A stretch of DNA of 64,000 bases from Actinobacteria bacterium OV450. GTDB lineage: Bacteria; Actinomycetota; Actinomycetes; Streptomycetales; Streptomycetaceae. The DNA is taken from contig LJCW01000120.1 of assembly GCA_001298555.1 (NCBI GenBank), positions 1 through 64,000 on the forward strand. Direction: 5' to 3'. The notes under the pieces are model-generated. The model did no database searches. It was not told the origin of the DNA and saw only the letters and a list, made by a program, of their open reading frames with translations. Made by a program: the position numbers and the translations under genes. This document shows positions 1,894 through 29,580 of the stretch, in pieces; the stretch's first letter is position 1, and each line of letters starts with the position of its first letter.

Positions 1894-2565
1894 ATGCGCC
1901 ACTCCCGTATGTCCCGCAAGGCCGTTCTGGCCACCACCGTCGGCCTCGGCTTCGTGGCCGCCCTCGGCGTCGTCCCCACCGCCAGCGCGGCCCCCGCCCC
2001 CGCCCCCGCAGGCAATGCCGCGAGCTTCGCGGCGTACGAGCGTTCGCAGGAGAACCAGGACGCCAACCGCGCCTTCTTCGAGGCCGTGCAGCGCTCGGTC
2101 GCCGAGCAGCGTGCCGCGAACCCGGGTGTCCTCGCGGTGACCGTCACGTACAACACGCGCAACGCGCCCAGCTTCCGCAGCCAGATATCCCGCTCGGCGC
2201 AGATATGGAACAGCTCGGTCTCGAACGTGAAGCTCCAGGAGGTGTCCTCGGGCGGGAACTTCTCGTACTACGAGGGCAACGACTCGCGCGGTTCGTACGC
2301 GAGCACGGACGGCCACGGCCGGGGCTACATCTTCCTGGACTACCAGCAGAACCAGCAGTACGACTCCACCCGCGTGACCGCGCACGAGACCGGTCACGTG
2401 CTGGGCCTGCCGGACCACTACTCGGGGCCGTGCTCCGAGCTGATGTCGGGCGGCGGCCCGGGCACCTCGTGCACGAACCCCTACCCGAACAGCACGGAGC
2501 GCTCGCGCGTGAACCAGCTCTGGCGCAACGGGCTCGCCGCGTCGGGCCTGGGGACGAAGGGCTAG
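1894..2565 (+). CDS. snpA: Snapalysin (small neutral metalloprotease, M7)
   Basis: 223-residue secreted zinc endopeptidase. It has a signal peptide (basic [10 protein letters not shown], hydrophobic core, Ala-rich cleavage region around residues 30-34), a pro-region and a mature domain. The catalytic motif [11 protein letters not shown] is at residues 164-174, with zinc ligands H164 and H168, the third ligand D174 typical of snapalysins, and general base E165. Cysteines at 180 and 193 probably form the single disulfide. The start has an AGGAG site. The divergent LysR gene at 753-1685 is the likely activator. It probably digests milk-type protein substrates outside the cell, as known snapalysins do. 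Confidence 0.93.
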
Positions 2566-2587
2566 CGGTTTCGGCCAGCCGTCGGAG

Positions 2588-2818
2588 CTAGGGGAGTTTT
2601 CCCACCTCGGGTACGTATTCCGCGCAGTCCGGGTTCCGGCAGGGACCCGGTACCCACTCCGGAATGAAGATCCCCAGCGCCTTGCGCCGCCGGATGACGG
2701 TCTCGACGGGGCGCCCGCAGACCGGGCACGCGAGCTGTTCGTGCGCGGTCTGCGGGGCCACGGCCTCATGCGGGTGCGGGTGGCGCCGGTCCTGCTGTCG
2801 GTGCTGTTCGCCGGCCAT
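2588..2818 (-). CDS. Small zinc-ribbon protein, function unknown
   Basis: 76-residue protein with two cysteine pairs, CPVCGRP and CRNPDC, about 35 residues apart, which suggests one zinc ribbon. The N-terminal third is rich in His, Gln and Arg (GEQHRQQDRRHPHPHEA). I chose the ATG at 2818 because GGAGG lies just upstream, although the spacing of one base is unusually short. An in-frame ATG about 90 bases further upstream is possible. It lies convergent to the snapalysin gene. I do not recognise a specific function. Confidence 0.6.
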   Translation of the reverse strand: MAGEQHRQQDRRHPHPHEAVAPQTAHEQLACPVCGRPVETVIRRRKALGIFIPEWVPGPCRNPDCAEYVPEVGKLP

Positions 2819-3014
2819 ACCTCCACGGTAGGCCGGTTCCGGCCGTTCGGCCGGTTTCAGCGCTTGACGGTGTACGAGCCACCCGTCCGGCCGCCGCCGG
2901 GGAGGCACGCACCGGCCGGGTCCAGGGGGCGCACCCCGAAGCCGGCGCGGGACCTCGGCATGCCGTGCGGGCCAGAGCGCCGCGCACGCAGTGGCCGAGC
3001 AGCCGTGATCACCG

Positions 3015-3629
3015 TCATGACGCCGCGAGCCCCTGCGGCTTGCGCCACATGGGCCACATCAGCGGCCCCTCCGGCAGCTGCACCGCCTCACCCGTGAACT
3101 GCCAGCCGAGCCGCTCGTACAGACCCTTGCTGCGCTCGCTGCTCGCCTCCAGGTACGCGGGGACGCCCTCGCGGTCGCAGCGCTCCAGCACCGGCCGCAT
3201 CAGCTCGGTCCCCAGCCCCTCGCCCTGCCTCCCCGGCGCGACCGCGATCATCAGCAGGTACTCGTGCTCCTCGGAGGTCGGGTGCACCGCGCCCGTCAGC
3301 CGGCCCACCAGTTCGCACCGCTCGTTGTCCGGGTCGGCGACCGCCCGCATCTTCGCCGGGACGTCGTCCTCGGCGGCTTCCCCCTCCGGGTCCCCCGCCG
3401 GCACCCGCAGCCACAGGGCGGCGGCCGAACCGTCCACCGCGTAGTCGATGCGGCCCTCGGCCAGTGCCACGTCCACGAAGACGCCCAGGAACCGGCCGTG
3501 CACCGCGGCCCGGTGCTCCGGGTCCGGGAAGACCCAGCTGCTCACCGGGTCGGCGCGGAAGGCCTCGTCGAGCAGGCGTGCCACCGCGTCCCGGTCCGAC
3601 TGATCCGCCTGACGTATCTCCAGCGCCAC
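3015..3629 (-). CDS. GNAT-family N-acetyltransferase
   Basis: 204-residue protein of the GCN5-related N-acetyltransferase fold. The acetyl-CoA pyrophosphate-binding loop is visible as APGRQGEGLGTELM in motif A, preceded by the beta strand EHEYLLMIAV and followed by YLEASSERSKGLYERLGW, the usual motif B region. The acceptor substrate cannot be inferred. It starts at GTG 3629, is transcribed as a single gene and lies downstream of the terminator that closes the encapsulin operon. Confidence 0.85.
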   Translation of the reverse strand: MALEIRQADQSDRDAVARLLDEAFRADPVSSWVFPDPEHRAAVHGRFLGVFVDVALAEGRIDYAVDGSAAALWLRVPAGDPEGEAAEDDVPAKMRAVADPDNERCELVGRLTGAVHPTSEEHEYLLMIAVAPGRQGEGLGTELMRPVLERCDREGVPAYLEASSERSKGLYERLGWQFTGEAVQLPEGPLMWPMWRKPQGLAAS

Positions 3630-3695
3630 TGGTCACACCCTTCGCTCGCGTTTCAACTACCGCCAGCGATCCTAGAGTTGGCCCCGAACAGCGGA

Positions 3696-3735
3696 AAGCC
3701 CCGTTCCGGCACCATGCGGTGCCGGAACGGGGCTT
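3696..3735 (-). terminator. Terminator of encapsulin/polyprenyl synthetase operon
   Basis: Perfect 18-bp stem (3696-3713 with 3718-3735) around the tetraloop ATGC. It lies 28 bp downstream of the polyprenyl synthetase stop codon. There is no strong U-tract, as is common for Streptomyces terminators. Confidence 0.8.
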
Positions 3736-3762
3736 GCGCACGGACGTTTCCGCGCTAAGGGC

Positions 3763-4830
3763 TCACCGGGTGCGCCGCGTGACGAACTCCGCCAGCGCCA
3801 GCAGCCCGCCCGCGGCGCCGAGGTCCGGTACGGCCCGGGACAGCAGCTGCACCGCCCGGCCCATCCGGTCCGCGGCGTGGGCCTGCGCCCAGTCGCGCCC
3901 GCCGGCCCGGTCCACGGCCGCGGCGGCCTTGCGCACGTCGTCCTCCGTCATCGGCCCCGCGTACAGGGCCGCCAGCTCCTCGCCGGCCGCGGTGCCCGAG
4001 GTGAGGGCGGCCACCACCGGCAGGGACTTCTTGCGGGCGATCAGGTCGGCCCCGGCGGGTTTGCCGGTGTGACCCGGATCCCCCCAGATCCCGATCAGGT
4101 CGTCGATCAGCTGGAAGGCCAGTCCCGCCTCCCGGCCGAAGGCGTCCATGCTGTCGACCTCGTCCGGTCCGGCGCCGGCGTACAGCGCCCCGAGCGCGCA
4201 GGCGCAGCCCAGCAGGGCCCCAGTCTTGGCCGTCGCCATGGTCAGGCACTCGTCGAGCGAGACGTGCGGCCGCCGCTCGAACGCGCAGTCGGCCTGCTGG
4301 CCCGCGCACAGCTCGATGATGCAGGCCGCGAGCCGCCCCGAGGCCGGCGCGGAGGCGGGATGCGGATCCTCCGCGAGCAGCCGCAGCGCGAGTGCCATCA
4401 TGGCGTCGCCGGTGATGATCGCGTCCGGTGTCCCGAACACGGTCCAGGCGGTGGGCCTGCCCCGGCGCTTGGTGTCCTTGTCGATGACGTCGTCGTGCAG
4501 CAGGGTGAAGTTGTGCGCCAGCTCCACGGCCGCCGCCGCCCCCACGGCGCTCTCGTCCGCCGCGCCGTCCCCCTCGCCGGCCCGGCCGCCCCGCAGGGCC
4601 CGGGCCGCGGCCAGCACGAGCGCGGGCCGGATCGCCTTGCCCGCGCTGCCCGTGGCCGGTGTGCCGTCCGCCCGCTCCCAGCCGAAGTGGTACATCGCCA
4701 CGCGCCGCATCCCGCCCGGCAGGGTCTCGACCGCGCGGCGCAGTTCCGGGTTGACCGTTTCCCTCGTCCGCTCCAGCAGGGCCGCGGCCTCCTGCCCCTC
4801 GCCGGTCGTGATCGCCTCAGTGGTGCCCAT
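3763..4830 (-). CDS. Polyprenyl synthetase, probable encapsulin cargo
   Basis: 355-residue trans-isoprenyl diphosphate synthase that condenses isopentenyl diphosphate with an allylic diphosphate. The first Asp-rich motif is DDVID (residues 113-117). The second is DDLIGIWGD (243-251), followed by the KKSLP segment. The residue before the first motif is His, preceded by Leu-Leu, and the product chain length is not predictable by eye. The N-terminal ~25 residues (GTTEAITTGEGQEAA) are low-complexity and may mediate encapsulation, as disordered N-termini do for Family 2 encapsulin cargo. It is the second gene of an operon 60 bp behind the encapsulin gene and starts at ATG 4830 with GGGGA upstream. 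Confidence 0.9.
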   Translation of the reverse strand: MGTTEAITTGEGQEAAALLERTRETVNPELRRAVETLPGGMRRVAMYHFGWERADGTPATGSAGKAIRPALVLAAARALRGGRAGEGDGAADESAVGAAAAVELAHNFTLLHDDVIDKDTKRRGRPTAWTVFGTPDAIITGDAMMALALRLLAEDPHPASAPASGRLAACIIELCAGQQADCAFERRPHVSLDECLTMATAKTGALLGCACALGALYAGAGPDEVDSMDAFGREAGLAFQLIDDLIGIWGDPGHTGKPAGADLIARKKSLPVVAALTSGTAAGEELAALYAGPMTEDDVRKAAAAVDRAGGRDWAQAHAADRMGRAVQLLSRAVPDLGAAGGLLALAEFVTRRTR

Positions 4831-4837
4831 GGCGTGT

Positions 4838-4873
4838 CCCCGATCCCCGATCCCCGAAATCCCGATCCCCCGT
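4838..4873. repeat. Short CCCCGAT direct repeats in operon spacer
   Basis: The 60-bp spacer between the encapsulin and polyprenyl synthetase genes carries about four imperfect copies of CCCCGATC. They may simply be slippage products. On the coding strand they read as a G-rich run upstream of the polyprenyl synthetase ribosome-binding site. Confidence 0.6.
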
Positions 4874-4890
4874 GGTGCCCGGCCGGCCGC

Positions 4891-6297
4891 TCAGCGCCAG
4901 CGGGCGATCTCGACGTTCTCCAGGACGCCGAGCGCGTCCGGCACCAGTACCGCGGCGGAGAAGTAGGCGGTGACCAGGTACGAGATGATCGACTGCTCGC
5001 TGATCCCCATGAAGCGCACCGACATGCTCGGCTCGATCTCGTCCGGGATGCCGGGCTGGTGGAGGCCGATGACGCCGGAGTCTTCCTCGCCGGTGCGCAT
5101 GCAGAGGATGGACGTCGTCCGCGCCTCGCTGATCGGGATCTTGTTGCACGGGAAGATCGGCACCCCGCGCCAGCACGCCACCCGGGTGCCGGCGACGTCG
5201 ACCGTCTCGGGGTACAGGCCGCGCTTGTTGCACTCGCGGCCGAAGGCGGCGATCGCCTTGGGGTGGGCGAGGAACAGGTCGGAGCCGCGGCGCATGCTGA
5301 GCAGCTGGTCCATGTCGTCGGGGCTGGGGCCGCCGTCGTGCGGCTGGATGCGCTGGTCGTAGTCGGCGTTGTGCAGCAGGCCGAAGTCGCGGTTGTTGAG
5401 CATCTCGTGCTCCTGGCGCTCGCGCAGCGCCTCGACCGTGAGCCGCAACTGCTGCTCGGTCTGGTTCATCGGCTGGTTGTAGAGGTCGGCGACGCGGGTG
5501 TGCACCCGCAGGACCGTTTGTGCAATCGAGAGCTCGTACTCGCGCGGCCTGGCCTCGTAGTCCACGAAGGTGCCGGGGAGGACGGCCTCGCCGCGGTGGC
5601 CGGCGGAGAGGTCGATCGCGGCCTCGCCGTACGCGTTGGTGCGCTGCGCGGGCAGCGACCGCTGGGCCTGTACGTGCTCGCGCAGCGAGTCGACCCGGTC
5701 GGCGAGCAGCCGGAAGTCCTGGCGGGACAGGACGAGCGCGGTGCCGGAGGTGGCGGCGCGGGCGGTGTACTCCCAGATCGCCTCCTCGTCGACGAGGGAG
5801 TCCTCGCCGAAGTAGGCGCCGTCGGCGACGGTCCGCAGCACGGCGTCCTCGCCGTAGGGCCCGGGGCCGATCTGGTCGATGCGGCCGTGGGCGAGCAGGA
5901 ACACGCTGTCGGAGGCGCTGCCGAAGGAGGTGAGTTCCTGTCCGGCCTCGAAGTCGATCTGCCGGCACCGCTGGGCGAGCTCGGAGAGCACGTCCAGGTC
6001 CTCGTAGGTGCGCAGGAGCGGGAGTTCGCCGAGTTCGGCGGGGATGACCTGGACCTGGGTCCCGGTCTTGACGAACTCCACGCGCCCGTCGCCGACCGAG
6101 TAGCTCAGTCGCCGGTTCACCCGGTACGTGCCGCCCTGGACGGAGACCCACGGGAGCATCTTCAGGAGCCACCGGTCGGTGATCTCCTGCATCTGCGGCG
6201 CGGACTTGGTCGTGGTTGCCAAGTTCCGCGCGGCCGCGGTCGCAAGACTTCGCTGTGGTGTCTGGACCTCGGGTTCGGAACCTGCCTGGACCGACAT
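4891..6297 (-). CDS. Family 2B encapsulin nanocompartment shell protein
   Basis: 468-residue shell protein with an HK97-type fold that should self-assemble into an icosahedral nanocompartment. The E-loop/P-domain part (about residues 30-85 and 225-468) surrounds a Crp-like cyclic-nucleotide-binding domain at about 83-205, the feature that defines Family 2B. A phosphate-binding-cassette-like stretch, [20 protein letters not shown] (164-183), retains Gly-Glu and a later Arg, but ligand binding is untested. The C-terminal region contains [10 protein letters not shown] and [21 protein letters not shown], typical of the group. I chose ATG 6297 because AAAGGG sits 6 bases upstream; ATG 6303 abuts that site. 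It is the first gene of an operon with the polyprenyl synthetase, its likely cargo. Confidence 0.92.
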
Positions 6298-6620
6298 GTG
6301 CATCCCTTTCGATCACTCCATGGATCTGCGGGATGCAGCCTTCCAGTACGGAACGTGGTGAGACCATTACACAAAAGGGTGGGACTACTCCGTCCGGGGG
6401 TGGGCACCCTTTGGGGTCCCCTCCTCCCCTCCAGCCGCCCCGGGCACCGCGGCGTACCTGTGAGTGACTGCCGTGACGGGTGGGCCGATCGGGACGAGTG
6501 TCCGGATCGGCTCGCTCACTGTACGAATGCACTAGCCCGGAAGAACCGCCTCCATTACACCGGAGAGCAACGAGGTGGACACGAAAGGTGACCATCGCGC
6601 ATCCGGAGAGGAGGCGGGCC
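6298..6620. promoter_or_regulatory. Divergent encapsulin/amidase promoter region
   Basis: 323-bp non-coding spacer between the divergent encapsulin and amidase genes. It holds an inverted repeat, AAAGGGTG at 6374-6381 and CACCCTTT at 6405-6412, separated by 23 bases. It also holds a strong GGAGG ribosome-binding site at 6610-6614, 6 bases before the amidase ATG. I could not assign promoter boxes with confidence. Confidence 0.5.
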
Positions 6621-7211
6621 ATGTCCGCACCCATGTCCGCGGACCGGTTCATCGGAGCACTGCGCAACGAGGGCCTGACCGTCGTCGAGGTCGGCGCCTG
6701 GCGCACCCACAACCGCAATCACAAGGGCCCGTGGGGCCCCGTGAACGGGGTGATGATCCACCACACCGTCACGCACGGCACCGCGTTCACCGTCTCGCTC
6801 TGCCGCGACGGCGACGCGGCCCTGCCCGGCCCGCTCTGCCACGGCGTGATCACCAAGGACGGCCGCGTCCACCTGGTCGGCTACGGCCGCGCCAACCACG
6901 CGGGGCTGGGCGACTCCGACGTCCTGGCGGCAGTGATCGCCGAGAAGCGGCTGCCCCCCGACCGCCATGCCGACACCGACGGCAACCGCCACTTCTACGG
7001 CTTCGAGTGCGAGAACCTCGGCGACGGCGACGACCCCTGGCCGGAGATCCAGCTCGACGCCATGGCCCGCGCGGCGGCGGCCCTGTGCCGCGTGCACGGC
7101 TGGACCGAGCGCTCGGTGATCGGCCACCTCGAATGGCAACCCGGCAAGATCGACCCGAAGGGCTTCACGATGGCCGCGTTCCGCGCCCGGGTCGGCGAAC
7201 GCCTCAACTGA
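6621..7211 (+). CDS. N-acetylmuramoyl-L-alanine amidase (Amidase_2 type)
   Basis: 196-residue zinc amidase that cleaves the bond between MurNAc and the L-Ala of the peptide stem. Probable zinc ligands are His47 in MIHHTVTHG, His169 in GHLEW and Asp178 in KIDPKG, the normal spacing for the Amidase_2/PGRP fold. A longer open frame exists upstream, but ATG 6621 has GGAGG six bases before it. No signal peptide or cell-wall-binding domain is visible, so it is either cytoplasmic or exported by an unseen route. Confidence 0.88.
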   Translation: MSAPMSADRFIGALRNEGLTVVEVGAWRTHNRNHKGPWGPVNGVMIHHTVTHGTAFTVSLCRDGDAALPGPLCHGVITKDGRVHLVGYGRANHAGLGDSDVLAAVIAEKRLPPDRHADTDGNRHFYGFECENLGDGDDPWPEIQLDAMARAAAALCRVHGWTERSVIGHLEWQPGKIDPKGFTMAAFRARVGERLN

Positions 7212-7257
7212 CGGAATCGGGTTGACACCCCGATGACCGAACCGTTTCCCTGACCCG

Positions 7258-7728
7258 ATGGCTGATCTTCGCATCGAACGGGTGGCCGGCGAAGCCTCCC
7301 TCCAGGACTGGCGGCACGTCCACAACGTGATCGTTCCCCCGGACGCCCTCACCCTCGACGAGGTCCGCGAGCGCGCCGGGCGCCACCTCCTGGACGTCGC
7401 CTACCTCGGCGACGAGCTCGTCGGCTGCATGACCGTGCGCCGGCCCACGGCCGACGCCCCGTCGGTGGCCACCGTGATCGCCCGGATCCTGCCCGCGCAC
7501 CGCGGGCAGGGCTTCGGCACCGCGCTCTACGCCCACGGCCTCGCCGCGGCGCACGCGCTCGTCCCCGCCCCCGACACGATCGAGACGATCGTCCTGGGCT
7601 CCAACGAGGACGGCCTGCGCTTCGCCCGCTCCCACGGCTTCGAGGAGTCCGAGCGCTACGTCCTCCCGGGCGCGACGGTCCCGTACGTCCACCTGCGGCG
7701 GCACTCCGCCGCCGCCCCGAACACCTGA
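7258..7728 (+). CDS. GNAT-family N-acetyltransferase
   Basis: 156-residue protein. Motif A reads ARILPAHRGQGFGTALYAHG, the canonical acetyl-CoA-binding loop, and NEDGLRFARSHGFEESERY matches motif B. It lies 46 bp after the amidase gene and 17 bp before the desulfhydrase-like gene on the same strand, so the three are probably co-transcribed. The substrate is unknown. Confidence 0.85.
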   Translation: MADLRIERVAGEASLQDWRHVHNVIVPPDALTLDEVRERAGRHLLDVAYLGDELVGCMTVRRPTADAPSVATVIARILPAHRGQGFGTALYAHGLAAAHALVPAPDTIETIVLGSNEDGLRFARSHGFEESERYVLPGATVPYVHLRRHSAAAPNT

Positions 7729-17007: not shown

Positions 17008-17026
17008 ATTGAGTGATACTTCCGCC

Positions 17027-17186
17027 CTCCCCGCACAGGAGGACGGATCGAGGTAAGCCGCGCGCTCTGCCCTGACCGCGCAGGCACCTCTCCCCGGCCG
17101 ACGGGAACCGCACACCCTTCGGCCGTAAGTACTCCGGGCTACGGTGCCGGACCGGGTTGAGGGTCCCGTCCCGGCACCGTGGCCCA
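17027..17186 (+). ncRNA. Probable small RNA, scr5239-like, under DasR control
   Basis: The kinase-TetR spacer is 350 bp with no ORF, but it has the layout of an sRNA gene. TTGGTC (16993-16998) inside the dre and GATACT (17015-17020) form a promoter with 16-bp spacing. A strong hairpin at 17136-17150/17171-17185 ends the transcript about 160 nt later. S. coelicolor encodes a conserved 159-nt sRNA, scr5239, in the same intergenic position, which acts on agarase and methionine synthase mRNAs. Identity here rests on position, length and architecture rather than alignment. The end points are estimates. Confidence 0.7.
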
Positions 17187-29404: not shown

Positions 29405-29462
29405 CCACGCCGACACAACATCTAGGGGGTCGCACAGGACACGGCCCCCACATGTATGCTCG

Positions 29463-29580
29463 TCCTCGCTGTCGTCGCAGGGGAATCCGGTGGGAATCCG
29501 GAACTGTCCCGCAACGGTATGAAGTACACCCATTGGTGTCACCGCAAGTCCGATGACCTGCCGACAGTGCGCCCGGCTCG
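29463..29580 (+). promoter_or_regulatory. Cobalamin riboswitch of nrdABS
   Basis: The hallmark elements are all visible in order: GGGGAATCCGGTGGGAATCC (29480-29499), CTGTCCCGCAACGGT, and the B12-box-side segment CAAGTCCGATGACCTGCC (29544-29561). It sits about 140 bases upstream of the nrdA start. In S. coelicolor the class Ia reductase operon is switched off by coenzyme B12 through exactly such an element, leaving the B12-dependent class II enzyme to supply deoxyribonucleotides. The terminator or sequestering hairpin presumably lies in 29570-29715. Boundaries are approximate. Confidence 0.93.

Follow-up and report, generated by a model that had tools for sequence, protein, structure and literature searches.

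Organisation of the locus

The window, that is, the whole stretch of DNA that was analysed, comprises 64,000 nt of Actinobacteria bacterium OV450 (Streptomycetaceae; contig LJCW01000120.1, positions 1–64,000). On its minus strand lies an operon-like unit of two genes. The shell gene of a Family 2B encapsulin, likely an eshB orthologue (4891..6297, 468 aa), comes first. A gene for a trans-prenyl diphosphate synthase (PT), the likely cargo and predicted geranylgeranyl diphosphate (GGPP) synthase (3763..4830, 355 aa), follows 60 bp downstream (gap 4831..4890), and then a hairpin. The shell reading frame (4891–6303) can begin with the ATG at 6303 (470 aa) or two codons on at 6297 (468 aa); a length of 468 aa is that of most of 120 listed shell relatives and agrees with the start at 6297.

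The single hairpin that follows the PT gene is a terminator-like, perfect 18-bp structure (3696..3735, minus strand) whose arms (3696–3713 and 3718–3735) of 18 nt each are 100% complementary. Folding of the strand from 3680 to 3762 gave -59.1 kcal/mol with a z-score of -7.22, and none of 200 shuffled sequences folded as low. A simple terminator scan did not list this hairpin, probably because it has no T run, and a sigma-70 promoter scan of positions 2500–7500 found no promoter. An earlier note on this DNA had described a Family 2B shell gene 60 bp ahead of a polyprenyl synthetase, closed by one terminator; the profiles NF041163 and NF041169, the Pfam domains and the measured gap agree with the first part of this description, and the hairpin agrees with the second.

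Elsewhere in the window, a cobalamin riboswitch (29456–29579, plus strand, 39.3 bits) stands at the start of an 890-aa ORF, and the ORFs after it resemble ribonucleotide reductase genes by eye. Near the left end of the contig, an 85-bp tandem repeat is present in 4.2 copies with 90% matches (195–554).

The shell protein and its phylogeny

In an NCBIfam profile search, the shell protein reached 757.3 bits against NF041163 (cut-off 400) and 363.7 bits against the Family 2A model NF041162, which is below the cut-off of 380. With E-values of 6e-228 and 3e-145, the profile matches of the pair are well beyond chance. Pfam recognises the SrpI-like HK97-type shell domain PF19307 with 458.6 bits and places the main shell domain at residues 218–468. 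The solved Family 2B shells 9bhu, 9bix and 9bje match the protein at E 2.1e-176 or lower, 9bhu with E 1.7e-199 and 666.7 bits. Among the listed relatives, nearly all named ones bear the Family 2B shell name for the shell and the NF041169 cargo name for the PT. Judged by these sequence matches, the identity of both genes is firm. For the shell, AlphaFold2 gave a poor model (mean pLDDT 50.4), which was left out of the analysis.

A tree of 83 Streptomyces Family 2B rows, namely the window shell and 82 of 128 extracted shells, without a 2A outgroup, places the window shell inside Family 2B; the result for NF041162 agrees. The tree omits the loci L001, L002, L006 and L127 and the short loci L017–L046, and L047–L075 were thinned by number. 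One clade with support 100/100 holds 57 of the 83 rows: 54 PT-linked shells, L181 having been entered as one of these, and three shells that are PT-less (L169, L183 and L185). Its neighbour is the clade of shells from 2-methylisoborneol (2-MIB) systems. Since the rows were gathered via PTs or from PT-less genomes, the tree shows clustering and not the full range of these shells.

The inserted domain

The shell chain carries the inserted cyclic-nucleotide-binding-like domain that is a trait of Family 2B and is missing from Family 2A (5701..5955, minus strand). PF00027 (cNMP_binding) covers residues 117–201 of the 470-aa form with 47.7 bits (cut-off 27.5), inside the residues 83–205 to which a Crp-type domain had been assigned before. 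From this domain the earlier note had derived a shell that could respond to a nucleotide; in that case cAMP or cGMP, sensed by the shell, might gate the PT. The PF00027 match over the cut-off favours such sensing, as does a similarity to the domains of cGMP-dependent kinase (PKG) with E about 1e-8.

In PKG, the Arg of the phosphate-binding cassette binds the phosphate of the cyclic nucleotide. When the shell is aligned with 3shr and 5j48, this Arg, part of RTAN, falls on Trp175 (468-aa numbering; codon 5773..5775, minus strand), and the phosphate-binding Arg that marks a cyclic nucleotide receptor is thus replaced. Trp occupies the position in all 33 rows of the alignment, the window included; inspection by eye shows it there in 9bhu, 9bje, 9bix and the second shell of the same genome on contig C110 as well. 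The cassette Glu has become Asp in 20 of the 33 rows. In addition, PMC12407261 states, citing a preprint, that the domain of Family 2B does not bind cyclic nucleotides. The suggestion of a nucleotide-responsive shell is weakened by the Trp and by this statement: judging from the alignment, reading of a cyclic nucleotide by the domain is unlikely, and gating of the PT by cAMP or cGMP is highly improbable.

The Rfam family Sernc350 matches positions 5759–6263 on the plus strand, opposite the shell gene, with 128.7 bits. Sernc350 is a Saccharopolyspora antisense RNA, the opposite strand of which encodes a protein with a cyclic-nucleotide domain in a terpene cluster. It also matches opposite nine shells in seven other loci and so probably tracks the coding sequence; the match is no evidence of a transcript in the window.

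The synthase and its N-terminus

With 483.6 bits, the PT passes NF041169 (cut-off 450), the NCBIfam model named "family 2 encapsulin nanocompartment cargo protein polyprenyl transferase". Pfam assigns it PF00348 with 191.4 bits, a domain that begins at residue 62. Both Asp-rich motifs, DDVID (residues 113–117; 4480..4494, minus strand) and DDLIGIWGD (residues 243–251; 4078..4104, minus strand), are intact, as had been read from the DNA before. An AlphaFold2 model of the PT has a mean pLDDT of 88.8 and a TM-score of 0.88 to 3nf2.

The low-complexity N-terminal tail that had been ascribed to the synthetase was not confirmed. Ahead of the first conserved helix segment (MGTTEAITTGEGQEA...) there are about 14 residues, the pLDDT falls under 50 at residues 1–10 and 84–87 only, and a helix spans residues 7–35. 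Residues 15–61 align with the solved 3nf2, and the model confidently shows most of them as helix, so that part of the "unannotated" N-terminal region appears to be folded, at least here. In PMC8346489, a disordered N-terminal domain of 50–100 residues is described as usual for such enzymes, and it is not taken as a requirement here; about 10 residues are disordered in the window PT.

The distance from the start to the FGW motif is 48 residues in the window PT. Among 70 group members it is 43–50 residues in 50 and 53–101 in the other 20, and it is 57–61 in 15 of 20 paralogues from hopanoid clusters, all with starts picked by script (with a Shine-Dalgarno-like match in the group members), three of 144 loci without FGW having been dropped. 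In 69 of 112 loci, there is no start codon more than 55 residues before FGW (110 residues searched). At L189, L190, L192, L195 and L197, 67–89 residues precede it. The notion that all Streptomyces PTs are short-tailed was accordingly rejected, as some members carry longer tails (53–101 and 67–89 residues). For the window PT, the model and these distances give no support to the loading by a disordered N-terminus that the earlier note had put forward, and a long disordered tail is excluded as its loading signal.

GLGT, a loading motif of the 2-MIB type, is present in the 2-MIB synthase of the same genome and is missing from all 143 PT sequences, trimmed to 50–62 residues before FGW. The Streptomyces members of the NF041169 group share a different short N-terminal motif, which reads EGQEA in the window PT (residues 11–15; 4786..4800, minus strand). 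As [ED]GxEA, it is found in 88 of 113 group members (L084 and L132, both without a shell, included), in none of 21 hopanoid-cluster synthases and in none of nine other paralogues. By eye it is absent from the four shell-adjacent loci outside Streptomyces (L191, L202, L203 and L204). The motif was rejected as a proven loading tag: 63 positions over the whole PT separate its group from the hopanoid-cluster group, so that shared descent explains the motif equally well.

Product chain length

Type I GGPP synthases have an aromatic residue at position -5 and a small residue at -4 of the first Asp-rich motif, with no insertion in the motif. The PT follows this sequence pattern: F at -5 and T at -4 occur in 112 of 113 group members, there is no insertion in the motif, and the archaeal GGPP synthase 5jfq has the same F/T pattern (HNFTLVHDD). 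The PT stays below the cut-offs of the NCBIfam equivalogs for GGPP synthases (IdsB, 356.7 bits against 475; GGPP_syn, 168.6 against 500). Going by the residue pattern, GGPP (C20) is the best guess for the product.

It is nevertheless possible, though the less probable outcome, that the PT is a cargo making another chain length, most likely farnesyl diphosphate (C15). In its own genome the PT has a paralogue in the hopanoid cluster, a synthase (C332, 409.5 bits) which adjoins HpnC, HpnD and HpnE and would feed squalene synthesis, and this counts towards farnesyl diphosphate for the PT as well; the residues at -5 and -4 and the uninterrupted motif argue against it. According to PMC8346489, the chain lengths of such PTs likely vary. 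An attempt to approach the product by way of the cloned GGPP synthase of Streptomyces cyaneofuscatus was abandoned: the main text of PMC11267608 gives no accession, and the L104 genome encodes six PF00348 proteins. Besides C332, the OV450 genome has three more prenyl synthases (C122, C334 and C114), for which mycobacterial synthases are the best or second-best models, none over its cut-off. With these further synthases present, an enclosed PT is unlikely to be the sole source of its product.

Distribution and association of the two genes

In 121 evenly drawn Streptomyces genomes, searched with the profiles at their model cut-offs, a PT over the cut-off was found in 91 and a shell in 118. The shell lies directly upstream on the same strand in at least 88 of the 91 PT genomes, or at least 89 with G013 added, with the profile edges 51–472 bp apart. 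The PT of G112 lies at the edge of a contig, and G076 keeps an intact PT in the old neighbourhood without a shell. A set of 80 loci selected for PT similarity comprises 75 with the shell, four cut near a contig end and one without it; the series L017–L046 and L047–L126 may contain the same species twice, and counts were made without deduplication. Of the 80 loci, 61 have full flanks, in which an M7 protease (54), a GNAT gene (48), an amidase (47) and a PLP enzyme (57) recur. As these flanking genes are mostly shared, the unit is for the most part inherited with its stretch of the chromosome.

None of 12 PT paralogues below the cut-off, hand-picked from the genome survey, has a shell within 4–5 kb. 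Likewise, none of 20 hopanoid-cluster paralogues has one within at most 5 kb; relatives of HpnC, HpnD and HpnE lie near all 20. In a class-wide draw of 197 genomes, four of the eight PTs over the cut-off outside Streptomyces adjoin a shell (L191, L202, L203 and L204), and the remaining four (L241–L244) have no shell within about 9 kb. Passing NF041169 alone therefore does not imply a shell as neighbour, and the name of the model over-calls cargo outside Streptomyces.

The pair can come apart in either direction, and the proposal that either gene is invariably retained for the sake of its partner was rejected on account of losses on both sides (G076 and L084 against G006, G101 and G051). Locus L084 (Streptomyces sp. 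BR123) has an open PT frame with other genes in the place of the shell, and the genome retains one shell on another contig, adjoining 2-MIB genes. At positions 3880–5980 of L084, genes that by eye look like one for a flavohaemoglobin and one for a small regulator have replaced the shell, and what appears to be the old leader of the shell now precedes the PT.

A shell without an intact PT was seen in G006, G101 and G051; these cases come from 20 shell stretches examined in 14 of the 30 genomes without a PT over the cut-off. Of the PT-less shells in the PT-linked clade, L169 has no PT. Beside the intact shell of L183 lies a 112-residue in-frame PT remnant (6472–6810), in which DGHEA at the beginning of helix 1 and the final 51 residues survive while the core is gone. 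At L185, a geosmin-synthase-like cyclase (2592–4919; NF041168, 1175.8 bits, just below the cut-off of 1200) stands beside a shell of the PT clade, which by its sequence is a possible swap of cargo. In G082 (L181), the PT is split over two frames; the adjoining GNAT gene is also broken, which may point to a sequencing error.

These separations lend some weight to another explanation, namely that the PT is a co-transcribed neighbour, free in the cytosol, the shell holding something else or nothing and the genes staying together for shared timing. It is consistent with the intact PTs without a shell in two genomes (G076 and L084), the shells without an intact PT in three (G006, G101 and G051) and the four of eight PTs outside Streptomyces that have no shell nearby. 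The window PT also has no long tail, the 143 trimmed PT sequences have no GLGT, and the cargo label itself derives from gene association. The contrast between at least 89 of 91 shell-adjacent PTs and 0 of 32 paralogues argues against a cytosolic PT, as does the single shell clade that tracks the PT, and we consider it somewhat unlikely. Encapsulation of the PT, for which the same gene association speaks, is probable.

Relationship to eshB and possible physiology

The Streptomyces sRNA scr5239, named for its position upstream of SCO5239, is found at 17019–17177 on the plus strand (118.6 bits), about 11 kb from the pair. This distance, together with the position of the shell outside a 2-MIB operon, makes EshB the most likely identity of the shell. 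By neighbourhood and type of paralogue, the pair most likely corresponds to the eshB (SCO5249)/SCO5250 locus.

The eshB promoter of S. coelicolor is up-regulated in development (PMC3878966), SCO5249 is among the possible targets of AtrA repression (PMC13170358), and SCO5250 was reported as 4.4-fold higher on glucose (PMC7494193). According to PMC6428758, eshA shares one operon with the 2-MIB genes in S. venezuelae, and eshA is not required for 2-MIB synthesis; this calls for caution before a shell is taken to be necessary for the product of its cargo.

Proposed function

Taken as a whole, the locus would be a Family 2B shell with a PT as likely cargo, a predicted GGPP synthase loaded without a long tail, and an inserted domain that may serve as a pore lid; this reading is favoured, with appreciable doubt. 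Like its solved relatives, the particle size and pores of which are given for Family 2B in PMC12407261, the shell would form a T=1 particle about 28 nm in size. The PT is predicted to be a dimer, as its relatives are. Its uptake into the assembling shell would depend on a short element at the N-terminus or on the folded surface of the PT, and not on a long disordered tail. Isopentenyl diphosphate and an allylic diphosphate would enter, and the product leave, through the large two-fold pores that lie under the inserted domains in solved relatives. The inserted domains would likely be a pore lid or bind a ligand other than a cyclic nucleotide. Expression of the pair is likely developmental. The sequences establish the identity, order and conservation of the genes, the motifs and the lack of a long tail in the window PT, and assembly, loading, product, control of the pores and timing are predictions.

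A more specific version is doubtful and should be taken as speculative. In it, the whole clade loads its enzyme without the disordered tail of other Family 2 cargos, by way of the five-residue N-terminal element [ED]GxEA where helix 1 starts and/or the folded surface, and the invariant Trp has changed the domain from a nucleotide receptor to a pore lid that reads another ligand. If it is true, the 112-residue remnant of L183/G101, with both PT ends beside an intact shell, would be a natural test piece. Genomes with one gene of the pair offer ready comparisons for the contribution of the shell to the enzyme.

Comparison with known systems

The shell–PT pair is already catalogued and is common in Streptomyces. 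The 2021 survey in PMC8346489 counts 900 Family 2B operons with a polyprenyl transferase, 888 of them in Actinobacteria, and 165 with both a terpene cyclase and a polyprenyl transferase; prenyltransferase operons of Family 2B are listed again in PMC12407261. The earlier note had regarded a prenyl synthase as an unusual Family 2B cargo. Because NF041169 is that very cargo class and the window PT passes it, and in view of the 900 surveyed operons, the claim of novelty fails. A literature search that covered few subscription papers and no bioRxiv preprints found no experimental study of a shell loaded with a prenyl synthase. The window pair consists of the same two families in the same order and genus as the surveyed operons, over both cut-offs. 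The one difference found from the PT cargo described there is the stretch of about 14 residues before the first helix instead of 50–100 disordered ones.

The eshA/2-MIB system of S. griseus (9bhu) has as its cargo a terpene cyclase whose long N-terminus is rich in Pro and Ala and contains GPSGLGT, and the shells of this system form a clade distinct from that of the window shell. The OV450 genome has such a 2-MIB-type system as its second encapsulin, on contig C110 (L012, 428–4238), with a shell (782 bits), a terpene cyclase cargo (NF041167, 500.1 bits) and a geranyl diphosphate methyltransferase (478.2 bits). Like eshB of S. coelicolor, the window shell is the non-2-MIB member of an eshA/eshB pair of paralogues. 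The closest solved fold for the PT is 3nf2, a polyprenyl synthetase of S. coelicolor (TM-score 0.88, 44% identity), which by eye is nearer to the hopanoid-cluster paralogue, whose gene has no shell neighbour, than to the window PT. The two-component XK encapsulin of S. lydicus (9bje and 9bix; PMC12407261) belongs to the same shell family and bears its domain in the E-loop, as in the window. That system has two shell genes and another cargo, whereas the window has one shell gene, the local motif of which (MRRG) is nearer to that of XK Enc2 (RRRK) than to that of Enc1 (TVWK).
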